Shown: positions 5,932 through 25,145 of the stretch, piece by piece
Layout: the number at the start of each line of letters is the position of its first letter
Numbering within the stretch: the stretch's first letter is position 1
Source: Catonella massiliensis
GTDB taxonomy: Bacteria > Bacillota > Clostridia > Lachnospirales > Lachnospiraceae
DNA: 64,000 nucleotides
Reading direction: 5' to 3'
Assembly: GCF_016651435.1 (NCBI RefSeq)
Contig: NZ_JAEPRJ010000001.1
Location: 1,736,001 to 1,800,000 of the forward strand
Position numbers and translations under genes: made by a program
Notes under the pieces: model-generated
Told to the model about the DNA's origin: nothing
Seen by the model: the letters and a program-made list of their open reading frames with translations, nothing else
The model's database searches: none

Positions 5932-6549
5932 CTAATCTTTATGCACTTTCAATTCTCTAAATACATCTAACAAATACTTAGCTACAGGCTCCTCGGCCTC
6001 TATAGTTAGATGTATCCCATCCTTTTCAAGCGGCAAGCGAAGGCTGCCCACATCAGCAAAATGCACTCCCTCTTCCTCTGCCACATTGTGAAGAGCCTTA
6101 GATAAGCCACCATCCAAGGTACTAAACTTTTCATAGTATCTGTCACCTGTAAAATCAAGTTTAGGAGGAGCTATAAGCAGTATATCTGTCTTTCTACTGC
6201 TGTAGGCTTCATTTTCAAATAGCTTGTCTATCAGAGCCTTCATCCTCCCTGCCACCCTATCTGCATCAGGCTTGCTATAGCTTAGATAATCATTGGTTCC
6301 AAGCATAATAGCCAAAAGGTCAATACGCCCCGCCTTCTCTATAACCTCTTCAAATTCTTCAAGTTCAAAGTCCATAGATGGTATACATCTGCCCACCTTA
6401 GCTTCTACGATGAATTCCCATTCACCCTTTAATTCATTAGCCAAGATACCCGTAAATCTTTGATTCTCAGGATATCTCGCCCCACTATGTCCGCCCCTTA
6501 CATCTACTCCATAGGTATTGGAATCGCCGTAAAATAAACACTTCTTCAT
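5932..6549 (-). CDS. SGNH/GDSL-family hydrolase
   Basis: The 205-residue cytoplasmic hydrolase shows all expected SGNH blocks: GDSNTYG at residues 8-14 with nucleophile Ser10, LGTND in the middle, and DGIHLT near the C-terminus supplying Asp and His. No signal peptide is present. The family removes acyl or acetyl groups from esters, often on sugars; similar short single-domain members are annotated arylesterase or lipase. It is monocistronic, in the gap between the ABC unit and the selenium operon. The substrate is not evident. Confidence 0.88.
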   Translation of the reverse strand: MKKCLFYGDSNTYGVDVRGGHSGARYPENQRFTGILANELKGEWEFIVEAKVGRCIPSMDFELEEFEEVIEKAGRIDLLAIMLGTNDYLSYSKPDADRVAGRMKALIDKLFENEAYSSRKTDILLIAPPKLDFTGDRYYEKFSTLDGGLSKALHNVAEEEGVHFADVGSLRLPLEKDGIHLTIEAEEPVAKYLLDVFRELKVHKD

Positions 6550-6641
6550 ACTTCTCCTCCATTTCTCACACTTACTGTATAAACTTTCGTTTATTTAATC
6601 TCTTACCTGCTATCCTCTTAGCCTAATTTATCCATTCAAAT

Positions 6642-6677
6642 AAGCCACATAACAAGTGTAACACCTGTATGTGGCTT
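6642..6677 (-). terminator. Hairpin after the LysR gene
   Basis: A perfect ten-base inverted repeat (AAGCCACATA / TATGTGGCTT) lies just 3' of the selD-selA-selB-LysR operon. The following T run is poor (TTATTT), so termination may be partial. Confidence 0.5.
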
Positions 6678-6697
6678 AAGCAAGCAGCTATATTTAA

Positions 6698-7615
6698 TTA
6701 AATTTCTTTGATACTAATCTTGTACAGCTTAGCAATTACTCCCATAAGGTCTCTACAGCCGTCTGAAAGCCTGTTCTTCTTCTCTGTTACCAGATAAAGC
6801 TTTCTGTAACCGCCCTCCTTACTTATCTTGAATTCAAGGAGTTCTCCTCTTTCAAGCTCTCCGGATACCGCAAGCCTTGACATCATGGCTATTCCAAGAC
6901 CGTTGATAACAGAATTAATTACAGTCACTGTCTTGCCAAAGGTTGCACTTACCTTTAATTCATCCTGAGATATGCCCTGGCTTTCAAGAAGCTTGATAGC
7001 CTCCTTTCTTGTACCTGAGCCACTCTCTCTCATAATGAAATCTTCATTTTTTATCCAGTTAAGGTTGGTCTCTCTCTCCTTTATCTTCCTGTATTTCTCA
7101 GAATTCTCAGTTACGAGGATTAGCTCGTCATCATAAAATGGAATAAAGTTACACTTGTTGCTGTTGATTTCAGTACCGGCTATGCCGATGTCTGCCATAT
7201 GGTTGGTAATGTCCTCTACCACCCCTGCACTGTCAGTTTCTCTTACCCTAAAGTCCACATCAGGGAATTTTTTCTTAAATGCTGAAAGAATCTCAGGTAC
7301 AAGGAACTGTCCCGGTATAGAAGAGGTAGATATAACCACCTGTCTTACCTTGTTGTCTTCATCCATTGAAAATGAATTCTGTATCTTGTCAGCAAGCTCA
7401 AGTATCTCTTTGGCATAGAGGTAGATTCTGTCTCCCTCATCCGATAACTGGACCTCTTTGGTTGTCCTGTCAAACAGCCTGACTCCCAGCTCTTCTTCCA
7501 GGTTGTTGATATAGGCACTTACCGTAGGCTGGGTAATGAACAGCTCCTTTGCAGCAAGTGTAAAGCTTCTATTATTGGCAATCTTTACGAATGCTTCCAA
7601 TTGTTTTAATGTCAT
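6698..7615 (-). CDS. LysR-family regulator linked to selenium metabolism
   Basis: The 305-residue protein has an N-terminal winged helix (MTLKQLEAFVKIANNRSFTL, then TQPTVSAYINNLEEELG) and a C-terminal periplasmic-binding-like effector domain. It starts in a TAATG overlap with selB, so it belongs to the selDAB operon. LysR genes in this position are a recurring selenium-associated subfamily, which supports control of selenium or selenoprotein genes, though its target is not shown here. The overlap with selB makes autoregulation of the whole operon likely. Effector unknown. Confidence 0.88.
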   Translation of the reverse strand: MTLKQLEAFVKIANNRSFTLAAKELFITQPTVSAYINNLEEELGVRLFDRTTKEVQLSDEGDRIYLYAKEILELADKIQNSFSMDEDNKVRQVVISTSSIPGQFLVPEILSAFKKKFPDVDFRVRETDSAGVVEDITNHMADIGIAGTEINSNKCNFIPFYDDELILVTENSEKYRKIKERETNLNWIKNEDFIMRESGSGTRKEAIKLLESQGISQDELKVSATFGKTVTVINSVINGLGIAMMSRLAVSGELERGELLEFKISKEGGYRKLYLVTEKKNRLSDGCRDLMGVIAKLYKISIKEI

Positions 7616-10991: not shown

Positions 10992-12038
10992 TTATCTCAC
11001 ATATATTAGTTTTTCCTTCTTTGGTACAACCTTACCGATAATAGCTACCTCGGTTGCAAGTGAAGAACCCTTAAGTGCCTTAATAATCTCTTCTCCATAC
11101 TTAGCTTCTACTGCATATAAGAGTCCGCCTGAGGTCTGTGGATCAAAGAGTAAGTCTCCATACACTTCCTTTACTCCACTAAGGTCAACCTTTGAATCGA
11201 AGTATTTTTTATTCTTATACGCTCCTTCAGGAATCATTCCCATTTCCGCAAGGCTCATTGACTCCGTTACATAAGGAATCTCATCTGCATATAATTCAAA
11301 AGAAACCTCACTTGGCTCAGCCATCTCTACTCCATGTCCCAAGAGTCCAAAGCCTGTTACATCTGTGCAGGCATGAACAGGGTAATTATCCATTATCTCT
11401 TTTGGCAGGCGGTTAAGTGTAGTCATAACTTTGATTGCCTCTTCCCCAGCTTCCTTGGAAGCCATGTCTACTTTGGCTGCGGTACTTACTATACCGGTAC
11501 CAACCTGCTTGGTTATAATAAGGATGTCTCCTTCTTTTGCGCCGTAGTTTTTCTGTATTTTTTCCGGATGCACAAATCCGGTTACGCTTAGTCCATAGAG
11601 AGGAACATCATTTTGTATTGAATGTCCACCTATAAGAAGTGCCCCTGACTCAGCTACCTTGTCTGCACCACCCTTCATTATATCTCCAAGTACGCTCGGA
11701 GACAGGCAGTTAGGGAAAGCAACTATGTTCATGGCAACCTTTGCTGTTCCACCCATAGCATAGATGTCGCTAAGGGCATTGGCCGCAGCAATCTGTCCAA
11801 AGAGGTATGGATCATCTACTACAGGCGTGAAGAAATCGAGTGTCTGAATAATAGCCACATCGTCGCTGACTTTATATACAGCCGCATCATCTGAAGTATC
11901 AAGACCTACTAAAAGGTTCTCATCATATCTTAACTTAGGCAACTTGCTCATAACCTGAGCAAGGGTTTCAGGACCTATTTTAGCGGCTCAGCCCGATGCC
12001 TTGGTAAGAGATGTCAGTTTTACATTTTCTTTACTCAT
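10992..12038 (-). CDS. selD: Selenide, water dikinase SelD (itself a selenoprotein)
   Basis: SelD makes selenophosphate from selenide and ATP. From the ATG at 12038 (AGGAGG upstream) the product has 348 residues, with an in-frame UGA at 11988-11990 as residue 17 in the context KASGUAAKIGP. This is exactly where other SelD proteins have catalytic Cys or Sec. Without readthrough the gene appears to start at a Met at 11951 and loses its active-site loop. GLDTSDDAAVYK and LIGGHS are the usual nucleotide-binding segments. A SECIS-like fold follows the UGA: TGAGC pairs with GCTCA, with an inner GGTCCTGAAACC loop. SelD therefore depends on its own pathway. Confidence 0.96.
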
Positions 12039-12093
12039 GTAACCTCCTAAATTTATTCTTAGTGATAAAAATTATCTATATATACACTGAATC

Positions 12094-12123
12094 ATTATAC
12101 TATACACAGTTACAAATTTTCAA
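12094..12123 (-). promoter_or_regulatory. Promoter of selD operon
   Basis: On the minus strand TTGAAA (12118-12123) is separated by 18 bases from TATAAT (12094-12099), about 55 bases upstream of the selD ATG. This is a good vegetative promoter match. Confidence 0.65.
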
Positions 12124-12136
12124 GTGGTCTACAATT

Positions 12137-12153
12137 TTGCAAAAAATTTGCAA
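12137..12153. promoter_or_regulatory. TTGCAA pair upstream of selD promoter
   Basis: Two TTGCAA half-sites 11 bases apart lie about 14 bases upstream of the selD -35 box. TTGCAA is itself a palindrome. The same word forms a four-copy array downstream of the trxB promoter (22617-22652), suggesting a shared regulator. Confidence 0.4.
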
Positions 12154-12194
12154 TTAAACCACAGTTTTATTGTTATTTTTTTAACGAATAGACT

Positions 12195-12227
12195 CAAAAA
12201 ACAGAGGCCAAATTTCTCAGCCCCTGT
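12195..12227 (-). terminator. Intrinsic terminator of the symporter gene
   Basis: On the minus strand ACAGGGGC pairs with GCCTCTGT (one G-U pair) and is followed directly by six T residues. It ends transcription from the glycine reductase side before the selD promoter. Confidence 0.75.
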
Positions 12228-12353
12228 AATCAACTTTAATCTAAGTCCAATCCAAATTATTTGCAATGCATTTTTAATATATTGCAATCAAGCCGTAGGC
12301 CTAATATTACAACAATTTGGATATAAGTCTGTACTGTAACACCTATTTTATGC

Positions 12354-13811
12354 TTACATCTCTACTTTGTCACCCTTAGCAAACTTAGCTATCTTGCCTC
12401 CAAGGAAGAGGAGTGCAAGGATGTTTGGAAGTACCATCAGAGCGTTGAAAAGGTCTGAAAGATTCCAAACAAGGTCTACCTTAAGAAGTGAACCGCAGAA
12501 GATACATATAACAACGATTATAGTGAAAGGAACTATTGCCTTGTCACCAAAGAGGTACTTGATGTTCTGTCTCGCGAAGAAGTACCATCCGATAATTGTT
12601 GAGAAGGCAAAGAACAATAAGCAGAGCGCTACAAACTTAGGACCTATACTTGAGAATCCATCAGCAAACGCTGCCTGTGCCACTGCTGTACCTGTAAATG
12701 CTTTCTTAACTCCGTCTACAATCTGTTCATTATTGCTGCCATATCTTCCATCAAGTACGCCAGTTGAAAGAATAACAAGAGCTGTCATTGTAAGTACTAC
12801 GAAGGTATCTATAAATACACCTATCATGGCAACTTCACCCTGATCCTGTGGCTTATCAACCTTAGCGATAGCGTGTGCGTGTGGTGTAGAACCCATACCT
12901 GCTTCATTAGAGAAGAGACCTCTTGATACACCTCTTCTTATTGCTTCTCTAACTACGATACCACCGGCACCACCTGCAATTGCAGCAGGATTAAATGCAC
13001 AGGTAAAGATAGAAGCAAATGCGCCTGGTACATTCTTATAATTAATTATAAGAATAATAAAGCCTCCGATGAGATAAAGTGCAGCCATTATAGGTACACA
13101 TTTCTCTGTAAAGGAAGCAATACGGCCGATACCACCAAGGAAGATAAATGCTGCTATAACCGCTACTGCAATACCTATAATCCAAGCAGGAATACCAAAT
13201 GCTGTCTTAAATGCATCACTTATAGAGTTAGACTGAACCATGTTACCCATGAAGCCAAGTGCAAGGATAATAGCTACAGAGAAGAAAGCAGCAAGGAACT
13301 TACCGAATCCACCCTTAAAGGCCTTAGTAATATAGTAAACAGGACCACCTGTTACTTCTCCGTTCTTATCAACTATCTTGGTTGCCTGAGCCATACAAGC
13401 CTCACCGTAGATTGTAGCCATACCAAAGAAGGCTGCAAGCCACATCCAGAAGATTGCTCCCGGGCCACCACCAACTATAGCTGTAGCACAACCGGCGATA
13501 TTACCGGTTCCAACCTGTGCTGCAATTGCAGTTGCAAGTGCCTGGAATGAACTCATACCATCTTTACCTGCCTTAGAACCACTGAGAGAGAAATCACCGA
13601 ATACTCTGTTCCAGGCTCTGCCAAAATGGCGAATCTGAACAAATCCGGTTCTAACCGTGAAGTACAGGCCTGCACCAAGGAGAACAAATAAAAGAATGTT
13701 GTTCCACACAAAGCCGCTCATTTGGTCAACCACTTTTGCAGCCTTGTCCATTGCGCTAGGCTCTGCTGTAGCATCTAAAGCCATTACAAAAAATTTCGTT
13801 AAATCTATCAT
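12354..13811 (-). CDS. Sodium:alanine/glycine symporter (AGCS family)
   Basis: The 485-residue protein has about ten membrane segments and AGCS family signatures: FQALATAIAAQVGTGNIAG, GGPGAIFWMW and FSNEAGMGSTPHAHA. AGCS proteins import alanine or glycine with Na+. Its place at the 3' end of the glycine reductase locus makes glycine uptake the likely job. AGGAGGAGGG precedes the ATG. A strong hairpin separates it from grdB, so it may depend on read-through or a weak promoter in the 126-base gap. Family assignment is very secure; glycine specificity is inferred from context. Confidence 0.94.
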   Translation of the reverse strand: MIDLTKFFVMALDATAEPSAMDKAAKVVDQMSGFVWNNILLFVLLGAGLYFTVRTGFVQIRHFGRAWNRVFGDFSLSGSKAGKDGMSSFQALATAIAAQVGTGNIAGCATAIVGGGPGAIFWMWLAAFFGMATIYGEACMAQATKIVDKNGEVTGGPVYYITKAFKGGFGKFLAAFFSVAIILALGFMGNMVQSNSISDAFKTAFGIPAWIIGIAVAVIAAFIFLGGIGRIASFTEKCVPIMAALYLIGGFIILIINYKNVPGAFASIFTCAFNPAAIAGGAGGIVVREAIRRGVSRGLFSNEAGMGSTPHAHAIAKVDKPQDQGEVAMIGVFIDTFVVLTMTALVILSTGVLDGRYGSNNEQIVDGVKKAFTGTAVAQAAFADGFSSIGPKFVALCLLFFAFSTIIGWYFFARQNIKYLFGDKAIVPFTIIVVICIFCGSLLKVDLVWNLSDLFNALMVLPNILALLFLGGKIAKFAKGDKVEM

Positions 13812-13890
13812 ACCCTTTCCCTCCTCCTAATATCAGTAGCCTCAGACCTCAACCAAATCTGAGACTTTTGTTGGGTATTTTTCTAAAAGA

Positions 13891-13926
13891 GTATCCCCCC
13901 GCAAGTCTAGCCTTGCGGAGGGATAC
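13891..13926 (-). terminator. Intrinsic terminator after grdB
   Basis: A 15-base stem with one mismatch (GTATCCCTCCGCAAG on the grdB strand) is followed by TCTTTT. It lies 12 bases downstream of the grdB stop codon. Confidence 0.8.
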
Positions 13927-13937
13927 AAGACTAGACA

Positions 13938-15251
13938 TTATTTATCAAATACTGTCTGCTTATCAACTTCTGTGCAGAGTGCATCAAGTGCCTTCTGAAC
14001 TATCTTACGACGAAGTTCTTTTTCCTCATCTGCTGGTAATGCAGGATTACCAAGTGGGTGAGGGATAGCAATAGCTGGTACGATTCTGTTAGCACCAACA
14101 GTAAGTGAAATAGGTGTTACTGTACAGATATGAACTACAGGGATACCTGTTGCTTCAATTGCTTTAACCATCGTTGCACCGCAACGTGTACAGGTGCCTC
14201 ACGTGCTGGTTAAAATAACAGCATCTACTCCTGCTGCAAGAAGTTTCTGTCCAATCTCTTCACCGAACTTCTTAGCTGATGCAACGGCAGTACCGTTACC
14301 AACTGTTGAATAGTAGAACTCGTGAAGCTTGCCGATAACTCCTTCTTTCTCCATATCACGGAGTACATCAAGAGGTACTACTCTGTCAGCTAACTCGTTA
14401 GCATATACAGGATCGTAACCACCGTGTGCTGTCTCTGAATTTGTACTGTCAAGAGTATCAAGACCAGCCATGCTGTAAGTGCCGTACTTTGAAGCATTTG
14501 AGCTCTCAATGTGGTCCGGATTGCCCTTTGGAACAATACCACCTGATGTAACTACAGCTATTGTAGCCTTGCTCATATCCTTGATAGCCTTACCTGGCTC
14601 TACTCTATCGAATACAGGCATTGGATACTCAGTAACGAATGGCTTGTCAGCTATCTTCTTAAGGAGCATCTCTACTGCTCTCTTTGAGCCTCTCTTAGAC
14701 TCGAAGAAGTTAACACGCTGATTCTGGTTGAAATATCCTTCTTCTACAGATGCACCGATTGGCTCTCCCTTTGCAAGCTTAAGAGCAAGTGGAGCCATCT
14801 TCTTAACTGCATCTCTCATACCTGCTGCATTGTTCTTAGTAGATACGATATATACCTCGTTCTTGAACATGTCTACACCAGGGTTCTCTTCGTACATACC
14901 TGTAACAACAGGAATATTTAACTCTTCTTTAACTGCTGCTGCTATAGTAGCGCAGGCAACGCCATAACGTCCTGCGTTAAATGCAGGTCCTGCAATAAAT
15001 AAATCAGGTTTCTGTGACTTAACCATCTCGATAATCTCAGCCTTAGCCTTATCAAGATTCTCATTGAAATAACTATCTCCACAGATGATAGTAGCTACTA
15101 TCTCTGCTTCTTCTCCAAACTCTGCAGCAAGTGCCACACCAGGACCTACCTTTTCTCCTACGCGGAGCTCAGCTGCATAATCAGCCTTTTCCTCGCCACC
15201 AATCTGTGCAAAGAACTGGTTGATATAATGAACAACTCTAAGTTTTGCCAT
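13938..15251 (-). CDS. grdB: Glycine reductase component B gamma subunit GrdB (selenoprotein)
   Basis: GrdB is the substrate-specific selenoprotein of glycine reductase that receives the glycine Schiff base and passes carboxymethyl to GrdA. The true gene spans an in-frame UGA at 14199-14201 (residue 351), giving 437 residues, the normal family length. Around the codon it reads STUGTCTRCGATM, the family UxxCxxC motif. Past the UGA the frame continues through TPISLTVGANRIVPAIAIPH to a stop at 13938. A GCACC/GGTGC hairpin begins just 3' of the UGA as a likely SECIS. The start at 15251 has AGGAG; ten bases separate it from grdE. Confidence 0.97.
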
Positions 15252-15261
15252 GATTTTCTCC

Positions 15262-16542
15262 TTATCTCGCACTAAGTGTATTAAATCCCATTTCGTTTGT
15301 AGCTCCGGTAATTACCTGAAGCTCAACTTCAAGTGTACCATCTTCTCTAAGTGTATGCTCGTTAGCTCCGGCAATCTTGTCAACATAAGCAAGAGTACCG
15401 ATAACCTTGTCAAGCTTAGGAAGAATAACAACCTGGTTAGCATTACCGCCGGTTACAAGAGCATTTGCAGCTGCATTTGCATCTGCAAGTGACTGTGACT
15501 TACCATCACGTCCTGCATACTCATCAGTAATAATAACAGTCTTAATTCCCTTAGCCTCAATCTTTGTACAGTTCATAATAAGGTCTGTATCAGGGTTACC
15601 AAAACCTTCCTCAGATATAATAACAGCATCAAGTCCAAGCATCTCGCAAAGCTTTGCTGTCTGGTTTGATGAACGCTGCTTATCAGCAAGGTATACGTTC
15701 TCGTTTGTAATGATATGTGCTACAAAGTTGATTGTCTTTCCATGCTCTGCATACAAGTCTTCAATAACAGGGTTGTTCTGATGTGCATAAGTCTGGTTCT
15801 TATCACAAGAAGAAACACAGTTACCGGAGATGATAGCTCCGTCCATATCCTCTGTTGGATAAAGTACTGTAGGGAGGATCTTCTTCGCATCAACACCATA
15901 TACATAGGTGTCGTGAAGAAGTCCCTGGCTCTGAAGCATCTGTACATAACCAACTCTAGGAAGTCCAGGGAACTTCTCAAAGCCTTCTTTAAGTGTAGGC
16001 GCTTCATATACTACTGTCTCATCAGGTGTAAGGTTTCTAGCAAGCTCACCGATATAAGCAGCTACATTAAGACCTGCCATACGAACTGCATGCTCATAGT
16101 CGTGAGGAGCAACTCCATCAACGCCTTCGCAGATAAGGCAAAGGTTAAGTAACTTTGAATATGGTGTATACTGTGCTCCAAGACCGGTCATATCGATGAT
16201 ACCTTCCTGGAAACCAACAATAGGTCCACAAGTAACTACCGCCATATCCTTAAGGCAATAGGTCTTTCCTGAACCAACTGTGTCAACAGGGGCTACAACA
16301 CCAGGGAAGATGCCTCCGTTTCCTTCTACCTTTACTCTAGGCTCGATTACGTCCTTAACAGGTGTAATTCTTACGGACTCGCCTGGTTTAGCAATGTCAA
16401 AGTCAGCACATTTAAGCTTCTCCTGCTCAAGAACTATCTTAATAAGCTCTTCTTTGTTCACATAGAGAACTCCGCCTTCGATCTTTGACGTTGTTGCAAA
16501 TTGGATGTCTTTGATGAAAATCTTTCCAAGTTCCAGTTTCAC
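15262..16542 (-). CDS. grdE: Glycine reductase component B precursor GrdE
   Basis: GrdE is a 426-residue proprotein cleaved into two subunits of component B. The new N-terminal residue becomes a pyruvoyl-type group that binds the glycine amino group. The cleavage site Asn241-Cys242 is visible in IISGNCVSSCDKN, matching the known Cys242 of characterised GrdE. The start is GTG at 16542 with AGGAGG. The GNGGIFPGV and CGPIVGFQEGIIDMTG segments are typical. It forms a block with grdB. The glycine-type (rather than sarcosine or betaine) assignment is from sequence feel and the company of grdA, C, D and X. Confidence 0.95.
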   Translation of the reverse strand: MKLELGKIFIKDIQFATTSKIEGGVLYVNKEELIKIVLEQEKLKCADFDIAKPGESVRITPVKDVIEPRVKVEGNGGIFPGVVAPVDTVGSGKTYCLKDMAVVTCGPIVGFQEGIIDMTGLGAQYTPYSKLLNLCLICEGVDGVAPHDYEHAVRMAGLNVAAYIGELARNLTPDETVVYEAPTLKEGFEKFPGLPRVGYVQMLQSQGLLHDTYVYGVDAKKILPTVLYPTEDMDGAIISGNCVSSCDKNQTYAHQNNPVIEDLYAEHGKTINFVAHIITNENVYLADKQRSSNQTAKLCEMLGLDAVIISEEGFGNPDTDLIMNCTKIEAKGIKTVIITDEYAGRDGKSQSLADANAAANALVTGGNANQVVILPKLDKVIGTLAYVDKIAGANEHTLREDGTLEVELQVITGATNEMGFNTLSAR

Positions 16543-17102
16543 AACTCATACCTCCTAATCATAATGTGTATTATTTTCAAACAATTCAAATGTCTGAAAT
16601 CGTTTTAATCATAGGGATGTTGTATTATGATTCAACCACTCATAATTATTATCCTTATTACTAAAATCATGTTCCAACACTTAAATCATTTATAGGAAAA
16701 TTAAATAATACTTTCCTACTTGAAACCTCCTATATTATATCATATTTCACTAATATTGTAATCCAAAAAATGCACATTTTCTGTATTTTCTATGTTTTCG
16801 ATAGTTTTAAGAATGTAATCGCGTTCATAAGCGTGCTTATTTTAAATATTGCACAAAAAGGGTCATTGTATATTTTTACCATAGATATGCCCGTTATTTA
16901 TACTATTTTCTGATAATTGTATTTTTTTGCACAAAATATAACTATGATTGTAACTTTTTATATTTTACAATTTTTTCTGCTAGAATTTCATTTTAAATCT
17001 TAAGTCATAATTTTTCATTATTTATAGTAAAATATCAATAAAAAAGAACCCTTTCACAAGCAGGTATACCCTGCTTACAAAACTAAGGTTCTTAATATAT
17101 AA
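16543..17102. other. AT-rich leader region upstream of grdE
   Basis: This 560-base stretch carries the grdX terminator (17044-17093) and about 500 bases of very AT-rich DNA leading to grdE. It contains TTGCAC words near 16849 and 16927 but no clear promoter I would defend, no riboswitch core and no coding frame. Its length suggests grdEB has its own control region. Confidence 0.5.
17044..17093 (-). terminator. Intrinsic terminator after grdX
   Basis: On the minus strand an outer AAGAACC/GGTTCTT stem encloses an inner AAGCAGG/CCTGCTT hairpin, and the outer stem runs into TTTTTT. It lies ten bases past the grdX stop. Confidence 0.8.
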
Positions 17103-17492
17103 CTATTTGAGTGCTTCGAAGGATTCAATTCCACTTGAAATCAAAGTAAAATCTATGAACTGTTTATCCTCGTCAGTTCCTTCTCTAAATTCGTCTGCTC
17201 TCTTAACAAACTTTTTGCAGTTATCAATCGCATCTTCTATCATAAGCAGGGAGTCTGCGTCTACATCTCCCTCAACTATATGAACCATAACTGACTTATA
17301 AGGTGTCTGTCCCGGTTTGATACTGCCAGAGAGCGGGTGAGTAAGGAGTACTGAACCTTTATGTATCATGTCTCTTAACTTTTCCATAACATTTAGAATG
17401 TCACCCTCTACAAAGTCAATGTTATAATTACCTTCTATTTTTTCTTTAACCAACGGATTGTTAGTAACTATCAAAACTTCTTGCTTTTTCAT
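17103..17492 (-). CDS. grdX: GrdX protein of the glycine reductase locus
   Basis: The 129-residue protein begins MKKQEVLIVTNNPLVKEK and contains TPYKSVMVH, features shared by GrdX proteins found only in glycine/sarcosine/betaine reductase loci. Its biochemical role is not established. Here it stands alone between two terminators (17521-17564 before, 17044-17093 after), whereas in well-known clostridial loci it sits near the front. It is likely soluble and cytoplasmic, as no signal or membrane segment is seen. Confidence 0.9.
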   Translation of the reverse strand: MKKQEVLIVTNNPLVKEKIEGNYNIDFVEGDILNVMEKLRDMIHKGSVLLTHPLSGSIKPGQTPYKSVMVHIVEGDVDADSLLMIEDAIDNCKKFVKRADEFREGTDEDKQFIDFTLISSGIESFEALK

Positions 17493-17520
17493 TTAATTTC
17501 ACCTTTATACAAAAAACTTA

Positions 17521-17564
17521 CGGCTGCAGCCATCTTTATCTAAATGGTAAAGAAACTGCAGCCG
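17521..17564 (-). terminator. Intrinsic terminator after grdD
   Basis: A nine-base perfect stem (CGGCTGCAG / CTGCAGCCG), with a short inner CCAT/ATGG pairing, is followed on the minus strand by TAAGTTTTTT. It sits 30 bases past the grdD stop and separates grdCD from grdX. Confidence 0.75.
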
Positions 17565-17593
17565 GTATATTGTCTTACTATGTAAAACTAGTC

Positions 17594-18751
17594 TTAGCTT
17601 ACATATCCTGCCTTCTGAAGTATTTCAACTGACTTTGCCTTATTTGCATCAGATACTCTGATGATAGGACCTGTACAACCCATACCACTTTCAGCATAGA
17701 TATTTTCTTTCCAAAGTACCTTAACAGCATCTTCAAGATCCATAACTTCTACGCCAGGAATCTGAGCTGTAACTATTTCCTTTGGAGGCTCTTTTACGTC
17801 TTCACTTGGAGCTGCGCTCTTCTCACGAGCAGCCTTAAGCTCAGAAAGTATCTTATCAAGGCCGGCCTTCTTGGCAGCCTTAAACTCAGCATCAGCCACA
17901 TCAAATACTTTTCCTCTTACAAGCTGCGCTGCATAGCGGATAGCATTTGCTATAACAGGAGTACCTGAAGCACGGGAAATAATCATAACTAAGTTCTTAT
18001 ATCCCTCGCCAATACCAGGACCGTATCCAAATCCGCTTGCTTCGTAGCTTCCACCTGTAGTGAAGGAAGAAAGCATCTTGCTCATTACATTACCTGTAAG
18101 TGAATCCATAACCATGATATCAGGAGTAGCCCTTAATACATCGTTACCTCTCATTACACAGCCGCCATCAGATCTGCTTGACTCTGTGAAACGGATGTCA
18201 TAGCCGCCTTCCTGAAGTCTCTTAAGTTCTTTCTCTGTCTGTCTTGCACCATCTACGTTAAGAATACCTACTGTTGGCTCTTTAACTCCACAAGCCTTAG
18301 CTGTGATGATACCATAGATAGCATTCTTTATCATACCTTCAATACGGTCAGTGCTTGAAGTACCTGTAGTATTGGCAATGAATAGTTCCTTACCAACACC
18401 AGGTGTAATTGCACGTCCTACTGTAGATACACCGATTGGGAATGGATAATGCATTGTAACCGCGCCGTCAATCTCGCCTGATGCAAGCATTTCGTCCATT
18501 TTATCATGTCCTTCTTCATCGTTACTAACCTTAACAGTAGTAACTCCTTCTGCCTCAAGAGTACCGATGTAATATACATCAATCCCATCTCTTGCAGCCT
18601 CAATCGCAGCCTTCATGGTAGTCTCTTCGCCATGCTCAGAACCCATACCTGTAAGCGCAATCTTAGGTCTCTTACCGAAGCTTCCTGTTTCAAGGCCTTC
18701 AGCCATTTCAAGGAAGGTATCGGCAATTATCTTTTCAATTCCTTTTCCCAT
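17594..18751 (-). CDS. grdD: Glycine reductase component C alpha subunit GrdD
   Basis: With GrdC, this 385-residue subunit releases acetyl phosphate from the acetyl-enzyme formed at the end of glycine reduction. Cys359 in SGMGCTGPIIRV corresponds to the active-site thiol known from a characterised GrdD. The N-terminal part has a PlsX-like fold (KIALTGMGSEHGEE, TTGTSSTDRIEGM). AGGTGG lies before the ATG, 21 bases after grdC. A charged linker rich in Lys, Glu and Pro (about 300-325) separates the two parts. Confidence 0.96.
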   Translation of the reverse strand: MGKGIEKIIADTFLEMAEGLETGSFGKRPKIALTGMGSEHGEETTMKAAIEAARDGIDVYYIGTLEAEGVTTVKVSNDEEGHDKMDEMLASGEIDGAVTMHYPFPIGVSTVGRAITPGVGKELFIANTTGTSSTDRIEGMIKNAIYGIITAKACGVKEPTVGILNVDGARQTEKELKRLQEGGYDIRFTESSRSDGGCVMRGNDVLRATPDIMVMDSLTGNVMSKMLSSFTTGGSYEASGFGYGPGIGEGYKNLVMIISRASGTPVIANAIRYAAQLVRGKVFDVADAEFKAAKKAGLDKILSELKAAREKSAAPSEDVKEPPKEIVTAQIPGVEVMDLEDAVKVLWKENIYAESGMGCTGPIIRVSDANKAKSVEILQKAGYVS

Positions 18752-18772
18752 TACATTTCCACCTTCCTCAGA

Positions 18773-20308
18773 TTATTCTGTTACCAAAGATGCTGCAAAC
18801 TCTTTCATAGCCTTAGCTATAAGTCCCTTTACCTCTTCCTCTGATACTCCGCTTTCCTTGCTGTCAGCAGAAGTATTAGCCTGAATTACAAAGGAAACAC
18901 CGTCAAAAAGGTTTGTCATTCTTCCAAGGAAGAGTGAACCCTTACCAACTATCATAGCCTTCTTGATGTTGCCGGCTAAGATATCTTCTCTAGCAAATCC
19001 GATATATGGAGCACCTGATGGGATGTGTCCCTGAGTAGGAGCAAAGCCTACAAGACCATGCTTCTCGATGAAAGCAGGAATCTCAGTTCTCTCAATCTGA
19101 CCCTTCTTTACAGCAAGAGCAGCTATCATCTTATAGTTAGCCTCAGGAACGTCTCCTGCTCCTGCTGGCTTAGTAATATCAGGATTCTGCATCTCTGTGG
19201 CAAATTTATCTATATCAGTAATCTTAAGTCCTACTTTCTCAAGTGGATCAGCAACAAGGCTTCCGATTACGTTCTGAGGAGCTGAACCTGTACCAACTGT
19301 ATGACGTCCAATGATCTCAAGGTTAATCTCAGGGCTTACACCGTCATTCTCAGCAATGAGAATACAAAAAGAAGCAATACAATCCTCAAGAAGTGGAACA
19401 TCCTTCTTTACATGATCCTTACCGTTCATACCAAGCTTAGGTACGCAGCCACCACCGATTACAGCAACTGTCTTATAAGCACCTGCCTTAACAAGTGAAG
19501 CAGCCTCGATAAGAGCGTGTGCAGGACCTGCACAGAAGCCTCTTGCATCTGAACCGGTAGCGTTTACAAGACCAGCTATCTCAGCAACAGCCTTTGCAAA
19601 GTTACCGCCACCACGCTGGTTAACGTCACCACAAGCCTCTTCTGAACAATCGATAACGTATTCAACATCTTCTTTAGCTACGCCTGTGCTCTTAAGTGAG
19701 TGAAGTACTGCAAGTACGCTTGAAGCCTTATTTACAAGGTTCTCGTGCATAACCTCAGCTGAAAGGTTTACGTCGATATCGTGAGCACGCTTAACGCAGC
19801 CTACAAGTGTCTCCCCATAATAAAGACCTTCTGCACCGTCATTATTAACGAACTGCTCGATTTCTGAAAGCTCAAAACCTTCGTGAACTCTTGCCATTAT
19901 ATCTTCTGTGATTACAGGATCTGCTGCAAGCTCAGCCTTGTGAGCTGCTACAAAGCCTTTCTCAAGCATAACTACTTCAAATACATCACTAGCCTGAACT
20001 AAAAGAAGGAACTCTGCCTCAGGCATAATCTCACCAAACTTACCGTATCTCTCAGCACCTGCCATCTTCTTGTCAAAGTAAGGGAATTCTACCTCTCTGA
20101 ACTGAGCAGGTGTAGCATTGCCAATGTAAACCTGATTTGGCCAGTAATCAACAACATCCTGATAGCTTCTGAGATGACTTGGTACACCCTTTAAGAATTC
20201 TGAATCAGGGTTAACAATCTTCTCAGTTACAGCTGTAGAACCATTGTGAATTATCATGCTTGGTGTATGCGCAAGTGCATAACCTGTTCCTTTAATAATA
20301 CTGTTCAT
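18773..20308 (-). CDS. grdC: Glycine reductase component C beta subunit GrdC
   Basis: GrdC (511 residues) is the thiolase-like subunit that takes the carboxymethyl group from the GrdA selenoether and forms the acetyl thioester. Thiolase-type features include NQRGGGNFAKAV, DARGFCAGPAHALIEA, with the likely acyl-accepting Cys, and GHIPSGAPY near the C-terminus. I use the ATG at 20308, which has GGTGG at proper distance; the GTG at 20317 overlaps that site. It is followed by grdD in the same block and preceded by the grdA terminator, so grdCD probably has its own promoter. Confidence 0.96.
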   Translation of the reverse strand: MNSIIKGTGYALAHTPSMIIHNGSTAVTEKIVNPDSEFLKGVPSHLRSYQDVVDYWPNQVYIGNATPAQFREVEFPYFDKKMAGAERYGKFGEIMPEAEFLLLVQASDVFEVVMLEKGFVAAHKAELAADPVITEDIMARVHEGFELSEIEQFVNNDGAEGLYYGETLVGCVKRAHDIDVNLSAEVMHENLVNKASSVLAVLHSLKSTGVAKEDVEYVIDCSEEACGDVNQRGGGNFAKAVAEIAGLVNATGSDARGFCAGPAHALIEAASLVKAGAYKTVAVIGGGCVPKLGMNGKDHVKKDVPLLEDCIASFCILIAENDGVSPEINLEIIGRHTVGTGSAPQNVIGSLVADPLEKVGLKITDIDKFATEMQNPDITKPAGAGDVPEANYKMIAALAVKKGQIERTEIPAFIEKHGLVGFAPTQGHIPSGAPYIGFAREDILAGNIKKAMIVGKGSLFLGRMTNLFDGVSFVIQANTSADSKESGVSEEEVKGLIAKAMKEFAASLVTE

Positions 20309-20470
20309 ACTTTCCACCTCGTTTTATTAGTTTTTTACCTTCTAAGCACTTGGTTATATAATAAATATCCCCCAAATGTTGATTTCTTTTTCTTGTAAGA
20401 ATATTTTTGAAGTAATTTTTGACACTCAATGGATGATAATTGAATCATTAAAAACTACAATCACAAAAAT

Positions 20471-20498
20471 GGCGATGAGGCAGTTAAACCTCATCGCC
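20471..20498 (-). terminator. Intrinsic terminator after grdA
   Basis: A perfect ten-base stem GGCGATGAGG/CCTCATCGCC with an eight-base loop is followed on the minus strand by ATTTTTG. It lies 30 bases past the grdA stop. Confidence 0.82.
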
Positions 20499-20528
20499 AC
20501 CTCTTAACTCTTAAATTGCAAAGCTTAT

Positions 20529-21002
20529 TTATAGATATTTGCAATACTCGTTTCTGATGTTAGTCATCTCTTCAATGATTCCGTCAACATCAAGAACCAT
20601 CTCCATCATACTAACCTGGTCATCATAAACGCTTGCATCAACTTCTGCTTTTATCTCTGGTTCGCAAATATGGTATACTGTGAGTCCAAGCTGAACTCCT
20701 GTCAATGGACCTGCAAAAGTAGGATCTCCAGCTGTAACAGTCTCAGCTGCAAGGCCTGCTGCCTCACCCTCTGCTGCACCAAGAACTACTACTACGTTCT
20801 CAGGACCGTACTTCTCTGAAAATTCCTTTACTCTTTTCTGGTTTTCAAGATCCATTGCACCTGCGCTCGTTCAAACGAAGCACTCAGTAGATGCAAAAAT
20901 TACTTCACCACCGGCTGACTCTACACAGGCACTAATAGCTGGGCCCGGTACACCGTCACGATCGCCGATGATTACTACCTTTTTGTCTTTTAAGATAGCC
21001 AT
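20529..21002 (-). CDS. grdA: Glycine reductase component A, selenoprotein GrdA
   Basis: GrdA is the small selenoprotein that carries the Se-carboxymethyl group between components B and C. An in-frame UGA at 20871-20873 is residue 44, in [14 protein letters not shown], the family CxxU site. The whole product is 157 residues, the usual length; a caller that stops at UGA keeps only the last 108. The start [17 protein letters not shown] at 21002 has AGGAG six bases before; an extra in-frame ATG at 21005 is an alternative. It follows trxB and trxA, which re-reduce it, and is closed by a strong terminator. Confidence 0.97.
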
Positions 21003-21200
21003 CATATTCTCCTTTCAAAAGTGTTTCAATATATCGTTAAAGCTTATGCTTTAAACGCATTTTAATACAACTCATAGTTTATCACAGTTGCAATAAAATT
21101 TCAATACTCTGGGAATACACTATAATTATTGTAAAAATTCATGTAAAAACCACAGTAATTTTAGATTTTTTTACAATAGGTTAAATTACTTTTGGTTTAA

Positions 21201-21521
21201 TTACTTTGCGTACTTCTCAACCATAGCTCTGATAGCTGGCTCTGTACAATCTTCCTTAGCAAGCTCTTCAACCTTCTCGCCACCCTTGTAGATAGCCATA
21301 ACAGGAAGTCCTAAAATCTTCTGTCCGATTGCAAGACGACGAGCCTGAGTTGTGTTGAGTGCACAGAATTTGAGCTTTCCTTCAAACTCATCAGCAAGTC
21401 CGTGTACAAATGGCATAAGAGCCTGACAAGGTACACAGCCATCACCGTAAAAATCAACGAATACATATCCGTCAGCCTCAAGTACCTCTGGTCCAAATGT
21501 TTCCTTATTTACTTCTAACAT
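21201..21521 (-). CDS. trxA: Thioredoxin of the glycine reductase system
   Basis: The 106-residue thioredoxin has active site GDGCVPCQAL with Cys29 and Cys32. The GCVPC motif in place of the usual WCGPC is the form known from glycine-reductase-linked thioredoxins. It passes electrons from TrxB to the GrdA/GrdB cycle. About 195 bases separate it from grdA, without a clear terminator. Confidence 0.94.
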   Translation of the reverse strand: MLEVNKETFGPEVLEADGYVFVDFYGDGCVPCQALMPFVHGLADEFEGKLKFCALNTTQARRLAIGQKILGLPVMAIYKGGEKVEELAKEDCTEPAIRAMVEKYAK

Positions 21522-21611
21522 ATCTATGTCCTCCTATAAATTGTATTTTATTAAATTATCTAATTTCATTGATACAGTACTACAAAAGATTAGATTGTAA
21601 TACTTGTATAA

Positions 21612-22559
21612 TTAGATAAGTCCGTTTACATACTTATCACACATTGTTGCTGCGATAGCACCATCTGCTGCAGCAGTTACAACCTGACGAAGCTCTTTTA
21701 CTCTAACATCACCAACTACAAATACACCAGGGATGTTGGTACGCATGTTATCATCAGTAATGAAGTAGCCTCTCTCATCAAGCTCAAGACCTGTATCTTT
21801 GAAAAGGTCTGAGTTAGGGATTCTTCCGATGAAACCGAAGAGACCGAACATACCGTCATCTTCATTTGCTACAATGTGAGTAACCTCACCTGTCTTTACA
21901 TTCTTAACATCCATCTCTGAAAGGATGCCGTCTCCATAAAGCTTTGTAACAGCACTGTCCCACATAAAGTGAAGATTCTCAATCTTGAAAGCCTTCTCCT
22001 GAATGGACTTAGCAGCTCTAAGCTCATCTCTTCTATGAATGATAGTAACATTTCTTGCAAACTTTGTAAGATACATAGCTTCCTCAACAGCTGAGTCTCC
22101 ACCGCCAACTACATATACGTCAAAGCCTTCGAAGAAGTTAGCATCACAGGTAGCGCAGTAAGATACACCCTTACTTGCGAACTCTTTCTCTCCTTCACAG
22201 CCAATTGGTCTTGGATAAGCTCCTGTTGCAATAATAACTGTCTTTCCTTCATAAGTACCATTATTACAGGTAACCTTCTTTACATCACCCTTAAGCTCAA
22301 CAGAAACAACTGTGTCGCTTACACGTTCACATCCAAAATGCTCACACTGTTTTGTCATTCTGGCAATAAGACTTGGACCGCTCTCTCCTTCAAGAACCTG
22401 TCCAGGATAGTTCTCAATCTCATCTGTGATTGCTATCTGTCCGCCATCACTTCCCTTTTCAATGATAAGAGTAGAAAGTCTGGCTCTTCCACCGTAAAGG
22501 CCTGCTGCAAGGCCGCCAGGTCCTGCCCCAAGAATAATTACATCATACAGCTTACTCAT
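21612..22559 (-). CDS. trxB: Thioredoxin reductase
   Basis: The 315-residue FAD enzyme moves electrons from NADPH to TrxA. FAD-binding GAGPGGLAAG (11-20), redox pair CATC at 135-138, NADPH-binding GGGDSAVEEA and C-terminal FAD motif GVFVVGDVR are all in order, and the length is standard. It is the first gene of the grd locus, with a promoter at 22704-22733 and a TTGCAA array between promoter and gene. Confidence 0.97.
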   Translation of the reverse strand: MSKLYDVIILGAGPGGLAAGLYGGRARLSTLIIEKGSDGGQIAITDEIENYPGQVLEGESGPSLIARMTKQCEHFGCERVSDTVVSVELKGDVKKVTCNNGTYEGKTVIIATGAYPRPIGCEGEKEFASKGVSYCATCDANFFEGFDVYVVGGGDSAVEEAMYLTKFARNVTIIHRRDELRAAKSIQEKAFKIENLHFMWDSAVTKLYGDGILSEMDVKNVKTGEVTHIVANEDDGMFGLFGFIGRIPNSDLFKDTGLELDERGYFITDDNMRTNIPGVFVVGDVRVKELRQVVTAAADGAIAATMCDKYVNGLI

Positions 22560-22616
22560 AGTTCACACTCCTTTTTTTCATTTTCAATCCAAGTTATATG
22601 GATATAGCCAAATGAT

Positions 22617-22652
22617 TTGCAAAAATTTGCAAGATCTTGCATTTAATTGCAA
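22617..22652. promoter_or_regulatory. Four TTGCAA/T sites phased every 10 bases
   Basis: TTGCAA at 22617, 22627 and 22647 and TTGCAT at 22637 are spaced exactly ten bases apart, so all face the same side of the helix. The array lies in the trxB leader, 52-87 bases downstream of the -10 box, a roadblock or repressor position. The adjacent TetR protein or the selenium LysR protein are candidate binders; neither is shown. Confidence 0.5.
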
Positions 22653-22703
22653 AATCTCACAAATTTTATTCAATAATTTGATTTACAACATCATGCACAT
22701 TCT

Positions 22704-22733
22704 ATTATACAACACATCTACCATATTTGTAAA
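22704..22733 (-). promoter_or_regulatory. Promoter of trxB-trxA-grdA
   Basis: On the minus strand TTTACA (22728-22733), an 18-base spacer and TATAAT (22704-22709) form a strong vegetative promoter about 145 bases upstream of trxB. Confidence 0.65.
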
Positions 22734-22883
22734 ATACTTTTTAAACGCATTCTCTACTTTTGTACTTTTTCATCATTTTTAAGTGCTTTTATTGTAGAAA
22801 TTGCCGTCATTACCTCTATTTTAATTTACTTTCAACTAGATATAGCATTGAAGGTAAGTATATAAGAGCTGATTATTATATTT

Positions 22884-22912
22884 TTGACATCCGCACCATT
22901 ATAGTATATTAT
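22884..22912 (+). promoter_or_regulatory. Promoter of the TetR gene
   Basis: TTGACA (22884-22889), 17 bases, then TATTAT (22907-22912), about 70 bases before the gene start on the plus strand. Confidence 0.65.
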
Positions 22913-22983
22913 ATCCATGCGCGTAAGCCCTAAATAACGACAATGAGTCATCTTTTTAATATTATTGAAAGAGGTTAGATAAA

Positions 22984-23652
22984 TTGGCACATAAAGCAAC
23001 TAAAGAACAGAGAAACAAAAATCTTCGTTCCTTCGTTATAGCAACCTACAAATTTATTGAAGAGGATAACTTTAATAGCATTCACATCAGAAGTATCGCT
23101 AAAAATGCGGGGTTTCACAATTCTACAATATACACATACTTTAAGGATGCTGAATACCTAATATCGTTAGCTTCCGTCAAGTTCTTTGAACAGTATATCC
23201 ATTCACCGGCGGAATTAAGCGACCGTAACTTATCCGACAAGGAAAACTTTTTTGAAATATGGCGTTTCTTCTGTCTGAACGCATTTAAGTATCCTGAGAT
23301 ATATCACAACTTTTTTTTTGGAAGACATAGCGATGACCTGACATCTATATTCAAAGAGTATTACACCATCTTTCCAGACGAAGAGTATAAACACTCCTCG
23401 AAGACGCACAGCATGTATGTAGGGAAAAATATAAACATCAGATGTCTTGATATACTAAAACCACTTATAGGCTTAGATGGCAACAGATTGAGCGAGGAAA
23501 ATGTTACTATTGCCAATAGTTTGATTATAGCTTATTTTAAGGCTCTTTTGGAGCAGGTGCTTGTATACAGAAAAGATAACAAGGAAGTAGACACCGATGA
23601 ATTAACAACTCAGTTCATGACCACCCTTGAATTTATAATTAAAACAGACTAG
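22984..23652 (+). CDS. TetR/AcrR-family regulator beside the grd locus
   Basis: The 222-residue protein has an N-terminal TetR helix-turn-helix (HIRSIAKNAGFHNSTIYTYF, about 38-57) and an all-helical C-terminal domain of unknown ligand. The start is TTG at 22984 with GAGG upstream. It is the only clear plus-strand gene in the window and is divergent from trxB, the classic arrangement for a local regulator. I infer that it controls the glycine reductase locus; the ligand could be glycine or a redox signal, but nothing in the sequence shows this. Confidence 0.88.
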   Translation: MAHKATKEQRNKNLRSFVIATYKFIEEDNFNSIHIRSIAKNAGFHNSTIYTYFKDAEYLISLASVKFFEQYIHSPAELSDRNLSDKENFFEIWRFFCLNAFKYPEIYHNFFFGRHSDDLTSIFKEYYTIFPDEEYKHSSKTHSMYVGKNINIRCLDILKPLIGLDGNRLSEENVTIANSLIIAYFKALLEQVLVYRKDNKEVDTDELTTQFMTTLEFIIKTD

Positions 23653-23957
23653 AAAAACATCAACTGAATTTCTTATAAAAAGTCTAGTTGAGGCTTTTCC
23701 CAAGCTTTATCCCATCTGCAATGGGATAATCATGATTTATTTATAGTATTTTATCTATAAATATTGTATTAATATCATATAAAACAATTTTACAAATTGC
23801 ATGATATATTATATTATAATATCATCTTTGGTTCACACAATACCATCATATGTGAATAGGAGAAAGCAGGAATCTGGGAACCTGCTTTCTTTTTTTTTGC
23901 AAAAAAATACAAGAAAGAATCCTGTAACTAAACATTCTTTCTTGTACCATTTCTATT
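23653..23957. other. Region between TetR gene and glycosyltransferase
   Basis: This 305-base AT-rich gap contains a weak hairpin TATCCCAT/ATGGGATA near 23708-23728 that may end the TetR transcript, then the small RNA candidate at 23824-23898. No coding frame is supported. Confidence 0.55.
23824..23898 (+). ncRNA. Probable small RNA with own promoter and terminator
   Basis: A promoter-like TTTACA (23789-23794) and TATTAT (23812-23817, 17-base spacer), with a perfect TATAAT at 23815-23820, would start a transcript near 23824. The short transcript has a TTCACA/TGTGAA hairpin and then a perfect ten-base stem AGAAAGCAGG/CCTGCTTTCT followed by a run of T residues, a textbook intrinsic terminator. 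It has no usable ORF. It could instead be the end of a long TetR 3' UTR. No known RNA family was recognised. Confidence 0.5.
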
Positions 23958-25145
23958 TTATTCCAGTACCTTTTTTAATATATTCTCCCAAGAAAGCTTT
24001 GATACACAGTCAGCATTAGCCTTGCTTTCATCATTAATGCTTTCAGCAATAGCCTTTGCAAGCCTTGCTTCAAACTCTGGCAGTTCTTCTTTTACTGGCT
24101 CATCCATATTTACAAGGGTGGGCAGCTTGACATATCTTATATTAGCTTCAGGTGCGTTATTCGCAAAGAATTCAGGCACTCCCGGAAGGGTTGTCACTAC
24201 AACCTTCATACCGCAGGCAAGAGCCTCTATCACAACAAGAGGTATGGCATCAAAAAATGATGGCAGAACAAAGATATCACTGCTTCTATATCGGTCTGCA
24301 ACTTGAAGAGGGGTTAGCCTTCCTGTGAACTCCACCTTATATTTACAGTTCTTTGCTAATTCTTTTATAATCCCATACTCTTCTTCATTCCCTGCTCCAC
24401 CTACCAAAGTAAGCTCCAGTTTATCTTCAGGAATATCAAGTTTATTAAGACATCTCAAAAGGCTCATAACTCCTTTTTTCTCTGCCACCTTTCCTGTAAA
24501 AAGCAGGCGTTTAACAGACTTTTCTTCTGTGCGTCCTACAGCATTAAATATACTCTGATTGTAGCCAATCCCAACCAGTGTAATCTTATCTTCCTCTACA
24601 CCATAGGCTTTTACAACCTCATCTGCCTGAGCCTTTTGTGGCGCAAATATCCTGTCAAGCTTTCTTACATTTTCTATAATATAATCTCTTTCAAGATTAT
24701 GCTTGCCCATCTGCCTGATATCAGTATTGTGGCAGAAACCATATACCTTTGTGCGAGGATATCTCTCCCTCACAAGACTTGTAAGGAGGTAGAGATGGTG
24801 GCATAAGATAATATCAGGCTTAATCTCCTCCACAGCTCTTTCAATCACTGTTAAAAATGCCTTCTTAAACTTCTCTTCCATATCGCGAGTCATGTCACAA
24901 TAACGGCTACTCTCGTAAGGCATCTCATCCGACATTCCGAATATATTAAAGGGCAGCTCAGGTGAATTGTAGTATACAGGGTAAAACTTCGCAGAATCAG
25001 GCAGGTTCACAACATCCTCCTTATACACTCCTGCAACCACCCCCTGAGTATGTCCCTGTTCAGCCATTACTCTCACCAATTCGGTCAGATATATACCACT
25101 ACCCGTAGACATAGGCTTTTGAGCAATTATATTTAATATTCTCAT
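23958..25145 (-). CDS. Glycosyltransferase family 4 (GT-B fold)
   Basis: The 395-residue cytoplasmic protein has the two-lobed GT-B layout. The N-lobe opens with MRILNIIAQKPMSTGSGIYL, and the C-lobe has FTGKVAEKKGV and the donor-binding segment SFFDAIPLVVIEALACG with its spaced Glu residues. Donor and acceptor are not predictable. It lies directly 3' of selC, facing the same way as the selenium genes. Whether it has a selenium-related role or is only a neighbour is unknown; no sugar pathway genes adjoin it. Confidence 0.88.
   Translation of the reverse strand: MRILNIIAQKPMSTGSGIYLTELVRVMAEQGHTQGVVAGVYKEDVVNLPDSAKFYPVYYNSPELPFNIFGMSDEMPYESSRYCDMTRDMEEKFKKAFLTVIERAVEEIKPDIILCHHLYLLTSLVRERYPRTKVYGFCHNTDIRQMGKHNLERDYIIENVRKLDRIFAPQKAQADEVVKAYGVEEDKITLVGIGYNQSIFNAVGRTEEKSVKRLLFTGKVAEKKGVMSLLRCLNKLDIPEDKLELTLVGGAGNEEEYGIIKELAKNCKYKVEFTGRLTPLQVADRYRSSDIFVLPSFFDAIPLVVIEALACGMKVVVTTLPGVPEFFANNAPEANIRYVKLPTLVNMDEPVKEELPEFEARLAKAIAESINDESKANADCVSKLSWENILKKVLE

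Follow-up and report, generated by a model that had tools for sequence, protein, structure and literature searches.

The leader of the trxB–grd operon of Catonella massiliensis contains an array of TTGCAA-type words in strict 10-bp register. The array is non-random, it is kept at the trxB–grd operon of Catonella morbi, and C. massiliensis has another copy of it at a second grd locus. We favor, at a probability of roughly 45% and judged from the DNA sequence, the reading that the array is a Catonella-specific DNA operator for a candidate phased DNA-binding protein. The element, a phased operator or a leader element, is new in its setting and arrangement; a TTGCAA operator for glycine reductase is not described in the open-licence literature searched.

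Organization of the array in the trxB leader

The window analyzed is a 64,000-nt stretch of the C. massiliensis genome, and its features are collected in Table 1. As the original prediction stated, four TTGCAA or TTGCAT words follow each other in exact 10-bp steps (starting at 22617, 22627, 22637, and 22647), an arrangement confirmed here and beyond chance. The word itself is not enriched (120 single TTGCAA-type matches in the window against a mean of 116 in shuffled sequences), and it is therefore the arrangement of the words that makes the array unusual. A first-order Markov model trained on 2.7 kb of intergenic sequence from the neighborhood generated no comparable array in 8.16 Mb of simulated DNA. 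With up to three mismatches allowed, a search of all 3.12 Mb of the genome finds the four-slot pattern at only two sites, the trxB leader and positions C1:1429780–1429825. Including the copy from C. morbi, the three arrays share a 46-bp form with five slots, which reads TTGYRA-N4-TTGCAA-N4-ATRCRA-N4-TTGCAA-N4-TTGCAA on the transcript strand. The middle slot holds a variant word in all three arrays, which also have their orientation to the grd genes in common.

The trxB operon is followed by a pair of grdE/grdG-type and grdB/grdF-type genes, for which the NCBIfam scores stay below the sarcosine cut-offs. A SECIS_4 element (RF01990, 14161–14198) lies directly behind the truncated reading frame of grdB/grdF type, where a selenoprotein gene would be expected to have one.

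The array lies downstream, not upstream, of the putative trxB promoter: the words begin at distances of 41 to 81 nt beyond the −10 box of a promoter-like site that is conserved in C. morbi. Slots 5, 4, 2, and 1 begin 41, 51, 71, and 81 nt past this box, identically in both species, whereas the distance from the array end to the trxB ATG differs between the two leaders (57 versus 54 nt). If this promoter is used, the array would lie within the transcribed trxB leader.

Compared with C. morbi (L047:4026–10000), C. massiliensis lacks several kb between trxB and the TetR gene (22559–22984). In C. morbi, this region holds a transporter-like gene, which seems to end beside the trxB leader, and another grd pair, probably of the betaine type. 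A short remnant of the end of the upstream gene seems to be left near 22780–22815 in the window, as judged by eye against C. morbi.

Table 1. Coordinates of the array, its surroundings, and other features discussed in the window
Feature	Position	Strand	Remark
LysR_Se (NF040786) regulator	6698..7615	-	Last gene of selD-selA-selB-lysR; candidate binder
TTGCAA-N5-TTGCAA pair	12137..12153	.	selD -10 box lies 54 and 43 nt past the word starts; taken as background
Candidate TetR_w-family operator (CATAAGCGTGCTTATT)	16826..16841	.	Upstream of grdE/G-type gene; also in C. morbi (L080:18215)
trxB	21612..22559	-	First gene of trxB-trxA-grdA-grdC-grdD-grdX
Slot 1, TTGCAA	22617..22622	.	Same word in C. 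morbi and second array
Slot 2, TTGCAA	22627..22632	.	Same word in C. morbi and second array
Slot 3, variant TTGCAT	22637..22642	-	ATGCAA on transcript strand; ATGCGA in C. morbi; ATACGA in second array
Slot 4, TTGCAA	22647..22652	.	Also TTGCAA in C. morbi and second array
Slot 5, degenerate TCACAA	22657..22662	-	TTGTGA on transcript strand; TTGCAA in both other copies
Predicted 20-bp RNA hairpin, trxB leader	22622..22667	-	Similar hairpin in C. morbi
Promoter-like site TTTACA-N18-TATAAT	22704..22733	-	Kept in C. morbi; upstream of array
TetR-type regulator (TetR_w)	22984..23652	+	Array neighbor, not likely binder

Distribution within and beyond Catonella

C. morbi is a related oral species of the same genus (Lachnospiraceae). 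Its trxB leader carries TTGCAA, TTGCAA, TCGCAT, TTGCAA, and TTGCAA in the same register and at the same distance from the conserved promoter. Between the two trxB leaders, the words are identical at 27/30 positions and the spacers at 7/16 (Fisher p = 0.0013). The corresponding values for the comparisons with the second array are 29/30 versus 6/16 (p = 1.8e-5) and 26/30 versus 7/16 (p = 0.0046). That the words are kept while the spacers have drifted speaks against two origins, a recent duplication and a tandem repeat in neutral decay; a recent transfer of a duplicated trxB array to the second locus was rejected on a spacer identity of only 7/16. A search for the gapped pattern with up to three mismatches in five Catonella genomes found it at only three places, all of them at grd loci. 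The element and grdC occur in the same two of these five genomes, and the other three have neither. In this distribution, the element looks like a lineage-restricted, Catonella-specific control element of grd loci.

The second array (L001:7781–7826, i.e. C1:1429780–1429825) reads TTGCAA, TTGCAA, TCGTAT, TTGCAA, and TTGCAA. Its locus comprises fhs (assigned from its translation), grdX, a TetR gene (tetR2), a transporter-like gene, and sarcosine-type grdG and grdF. The array overlaps the 3′ end of tetR2 and lies upstream of the transporter-like gene (∼365 bp away), not directly of grdG (∼1.9 kb away), and the search for a promoter-like site at the spacing of the trxB leader was negative. Alignment with C. 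morbi reveals ∼1.6 kb of extra DNA (L001 ∼6240–7845) starting near the end of tetR2. This segment holds the array, 20 bp from the left edge, and the transporter-like gene, and is followed by the former 3′ end of tetR2 and by the leader of grdG. The transporter-like gene has no NCBIfam match at 1e-8 and no Pfam match at 1e-5; C. morbi has a related gene downstream of grdF. Because the tetR2–grdG gap of C. morbi contains neither the segment nor an array, the second array appears to be part of a segment that was moved, was inserted in C. massiliensis, or was lost in C. morbi.

Outside the genus, the trxB leaders were collected through matches to TrxA, which occurred in 37 of 378 genomes. Thirty loci were taken, one of them from C. 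massiliensis, and together with loci L047, L060, L072, and L074 they yielded 34 leaders. Of these, 32 are from outside Catonella: 29 from the same family, L060 and L072 from Lachnospiraceae (L072 presumably so, as assigned through its genus), and L074 from Eubacterium pyruvativorans. The in-phase word pair is absent from all 32 leaders (31 distinct, because L072 and L094 are identical; the leader of L114 is miscut, its match starting late), and any such word is present in six. When the 34 leaders were searched for any phased word, only the two Catonella leaders stood out at 10 bp (0/60 nulls); two further leaders came to 2/60 at 11 bp, which is unremarkable among 68 tests. The predicted conservation in relatives with the same loci thus had a mixed outcome, in that it was seen between the two Catonella species and not in the other leaders examined.

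Wider scans covered samples of the family, order, and class that were even, overlapping draws, not whole groups. The loose four-slot pattern (up to three mismatches) was present in 31/397 family genomes including C. massiliensis, compared with 7 for a reversed control pattern. None of the matching loci of roughly 3 kb from 29 of the 30 other genomes encodes relatives of 20 query proteins from the grd/sel region. Among 392 genomes of the order, the gapped pattern was found in one other genome (G569, repeat-like), as was the reversed control (G469). Among 391 genomes of the class it was again found in one other genome (G799, repeat-like), here at no more than one mismatch, a setting too strict to list the array of the window itself. 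Viral contigs contributed three stretches that are repeat-like by eye, with L137 and L138 among the repeat-like arrays.

Selenium genes and TetR-type regulators at the grd loci

The original prediction had also joined the array to a TTGCAA pair upstream of selD, in an operator shared by the selenium and glycine reductase promoters. The pair is real, with words at 12137 and 12148. However, perfect TTGCAA-Nx-TTGCAA pairs occur 4, 4, 2, and 6 times in the genome for x = 3, 4, 5, and 6 (9-, 10-, 11-, and 12-bp spacing), and three of the four perfect N4 pairs sit inside the two arrays. The other perfect N5 pair is located between genes of the metal-transport and aminopeptidase types (judged from their translations). 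In C. morbi, no TTGCAA word is present in roughly 1.5 kb before selD, a comparison weakened by an IS110-type gene upstream. A shared operator is not borne out by a single 11-bp pair of background frequency that is absent from C. morbi, and we rejected the selD pair as part of the array system.

The IS110-type transposase gene of C. morbi (L080:11899–13266) may have replaced the region upstream of selD. In the window, selD probably starts at 12038 (by eye), earlier than the mechanical ORF start at 11951, and an in-frame TGA follows at 11990–11988, by which SelD itself would be a selenoprotein. The selD leader of C. morbi reads likewise by eye, with an early start and an in-frame TGA.

Binding of the TTGCAA array by the neighboring TetR proteins, as had been suggested, is highly improbable. 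A TetR gene adjoins both C. massiliensis arrays, and TTGCAA-N4-TTGCAA forms a 16-bp palindrome, but both TetR families have better operator candidates of other sequence. TetR_w itself gives weak NCBIfam matches only and no Pfam match at 1e-5, and its relatives carry PF00440; proteins 77–86% identical to it are known from public sources. In loci of the TetR_w family, AATAAGCGCGCTTATT (up to three mismatches) occurs in 22/30, compared with 0 to 8/30 for 25 shuffled palindromes. A site of this type lies at most 500 bp before the TetR gene in 19/30 loci and is not found in 8/30. For the relatives of the second TetR protein (TetR_2), TTATCGCGATAA-type sites are present in 7/7 loci, which come from six genomes, and shuffled palindromes in no more than 5/7; a perfect TTATCGCGATAA copy precedes grdG in both Catonella species. 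By position and recurrence, AATAAGCGCGCTTATT and TTATCGCGATAA are candidate TetR sites. The TTGCAA word, in turn, occurs at most once in each of 20 upstream regions of TetR_w-family loci. In C. morbi, TetR_w is encoded ∼6 kb from the array, and TetR_2 is present without an array. These candidate TetR-type operators share palindromic symmetry and the same loci with the array, differ from it in sequence and position, and probably serve a separate control of substrate-specific genes.

A further AATAAGCGCGCTTATT-type copy precedes the other grd pair of C. morbi (L047:8536). The AATAAGCGCGCTTATT palindrome often occurs twice, ∼40 bp apart, near grd pairs that adjoin a TetR gene (window, L047, L080, and L048–L074). 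Upstream of the grdE/G-type gene, ATTGCACAAA adjoins the TetR-type site in both species (window 16842–16860, L080 18231–18247), and TGCACAAA strings similar to ATTGCACAAA are found near tetR2–grdG. Three GTTATCGYGATTAC-like sites, seen by eye, precede the sarcosine-type grdG in both Catonella species (L001:5903–6050 and L082:4150–4320), and sites resembling them are present in the 7/7 loci of TetR_2 relatives.

Proposed DNA operator, possible leader hairpin, and candidate binders

What we infer for the array, from use of the promoter to binding of a protein, its effect, and its identity, is the following. An oligomeric regulator would bind the self-palindromic TTGCAA words, which are one helical turn apart, from one face of the DNA. 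With the array ∼35–80 nt into the transcribed region, such binding would block transcription at the stage of initiation or of elongation and thereby tie the shared genes for thioredoxin, component A, and component C to a signal. Parts of the geometry would suit several putative binders: a regulator of the LacI family (given the CytR-like word), a response regulator of the OmpR type, or a tetramer of the LysR type. A DNA operator is favored by the strict one-turn register in three places, by words that stay constant while the spacers drift in all three comparisons, by slot-to-(−10) distances that are equal in the two species while the array-to-ATG distance differs, by the second copy being without a hairpin, and by the restriction of the pattern within the genus to grd loci, in two genomes that have grdC. 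On the other side, the binder is only a candidate and slot 5 is degenerate in the window. The second copy is far from grdG, has no promoter-like site at the trxB distance, and is missing from C. morbi; 0/32 other trxB–grd leaders have an in-phase pair. A DNA operator alone also does not explain why the trxB leaders fold in a strand-specific manner.

The folding would be explained if the element acts as RNA, a close rival of the operator reading that we regard as somewhat less probable. A long hairpin in the trxB leader would then govern stability of or access to the message, or bind an RNA-binding protein, with the words as stem arms (slot 5 paired with slot 2, slot 4 with slot 3). Since TTGCAA words are self-complementary, any RNA copy of them folds, and the null model therefore kept the words fixed and shuffled spacers and flanks. 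Against this null, both trxB leaders fold better on the transcript strand (p = 0.006 and 0.007, z about −3) and not on the antisense strand (p = 0.17 and 0.19), the p values not being independent because the two leaders are related. The strand difference is caused by G-U pairs, which matter only in RNA. Spacer and flank positions are paired at 8/8 in C. massiliensis and 7/8 in C. morbi (composition model, 0.0007 for 8/8 and 0.0096 for at least 7), and the degenerate slot 5 (TTGTGA) is still able to pair with TTGCAA via G-U. Comparing the stem by eye in these two leaders only, two pairs are changed on both sides (T-A/C-G and G-C/A-T), several others differ but keep G-U, and one is broken. However, the second copy has no hairpin (p = 0.92 for the transcript and 0.35 for the other strand; 3/8 spacer pairs), structure alone would not need the word to stay TTGCAA, and only two related leaders are comparable. 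The array thus resembles 5′-leader RNA hairpins in the strand-specific folding of the trxB leaders of two species and differs from them in its second copy and in having no Rfam match. The SECIS_4 element mentioned above is the only match at threshold in window positions 11500–24000, and a known Rfam element at the array was rejected, as was intrinsic attenuation, with no terminator-like site found at 22500–23000. It is mainly the strand-specific folding that holds the odds of a DNA operator at the value given at the outset. Both functions may also be combined in a dual element of Catonella grd operons, in which the same palindromic words act in phase as a DNA operator and, after transcription, form a hairpin in the mRNA leader, with a regulator new to glycine reduction; we consider this unlikely. 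The A/T-rich spacers and the repeat-like TTGCAA arrays elsewhere (G569, G799, L137, and L138) would be in line with a 10-mer tandem repeat surviving as a neutral remnant, or with A/T runs whose phasing does no more than bend DNA. This reading is improbable, given that the words are conserved and the spacers are not, that the copies have the middle variant in common, and that the array recurs at a second grd locus; bending alone also needs no central GC.

Binding by LacI-family, LysR, or TetR proteins is a special case of a DNA operator, and the odds of these candidates overlap with those of the operator itself. OmpR/PhoB-type response regulators bind direct repeats 10–11 bp apart in runs, like those of the array, the word of which is not known to be one of theirs. 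That a LacI-family protein, CcpA or CytR-like, reads the TTGCAA half-sites has a rather low probability. CcpA, a member of this family, is widespread, whereas the array is confined to two Catonella species. In Clostridioides difficile, CcpA is reported to repress most of the grd operon and to bind inside grdX, and cre sites occur within or downstream of promoters (PMC3510511); this regulation of a glycine reductase operon from inside the transcribed region resembles the position of the array. The word pairs fit the B. subtilis cre consensus (WTGNNARCGNWWWCAW) at 13/16 positions, a figure without a chance control; among the positions that do not fit is the central CG, which is obligatory in this consensus. 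Agreement with the C. difficile consensus is poorer (at least 5 mismatches of 16), and the published CcpA consensus sites as they stand were rejected. Apart from the missing central CG, the array differs from cre sites in its multiple phased copies and in not being seen in other grd leaders. For CytR, a LacI-family regulator, PMC3454398 describes sites with the palindrome TTGCAA or half-site pairs on one side of the helix, and the array likewise presents TTGCAA half-sites about one turn apart on one side. As described there, however, CytR is known from gamma-proteobacteria and its sites occur as pairs, in most cases flanked by CRP sites upstream of genes, whereas the array belongs to a member of the Bacillota, follows the promoter, and has four to five words spaced at strictly 10 bp.

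The binder could also be the selenium-linked LysR_Se, as a tetramer that occupies four half-sites along one face; glycine reduction would then be coupled to selenium status. We consider this quite unlikely. LysR operators have the signature T-N11-A, and LysR sites lie upstream of the regulated promoter. The array, in contrast, follows the promoter and has no T-N11-A core: the signature is absent from the conserved letters in C. morbi, and each of the other arrays has one incidental match. Its geometry does agree with LysR-type tetramer operators, in which half-sites ∼10 bp apart on one face are contiguous in a row of four or form two pairs. Slots 1–2 and 4–5 make up two such pairs with a one-turn gap, as reported for OxyR, which binds two half-site pairs one turn apart when reduced and four adjacent grooves when oxidised (PMC2225504). 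LysR_Se, which has been proposed as a selenium regulator (PMC5322559), scores above the family cut-off in the same two of five Catonella genomes as the array, a co-occurrence confounded with the grd genes. Moreover, a LysR_Se-like gene lies beside a grd operon without an array (L060), and the selD pair has the 11-bp spacing and background frequency noted above.

Glycine reductase operons of C. difficile are reported to answer to carbon and iron status (PMC3510511, PMC6311696). At the grd loci of Catonella, three candidate control signals can now be told apart: one is the TTGCAA element of trxB, and the other two are the TetR-type operators of substrate-specific genes. The array gives a named genus of oral bacteria a concrete element open to testing, and the identity of its binder would reveal the signal that sets the shared genes of glycine reduction.
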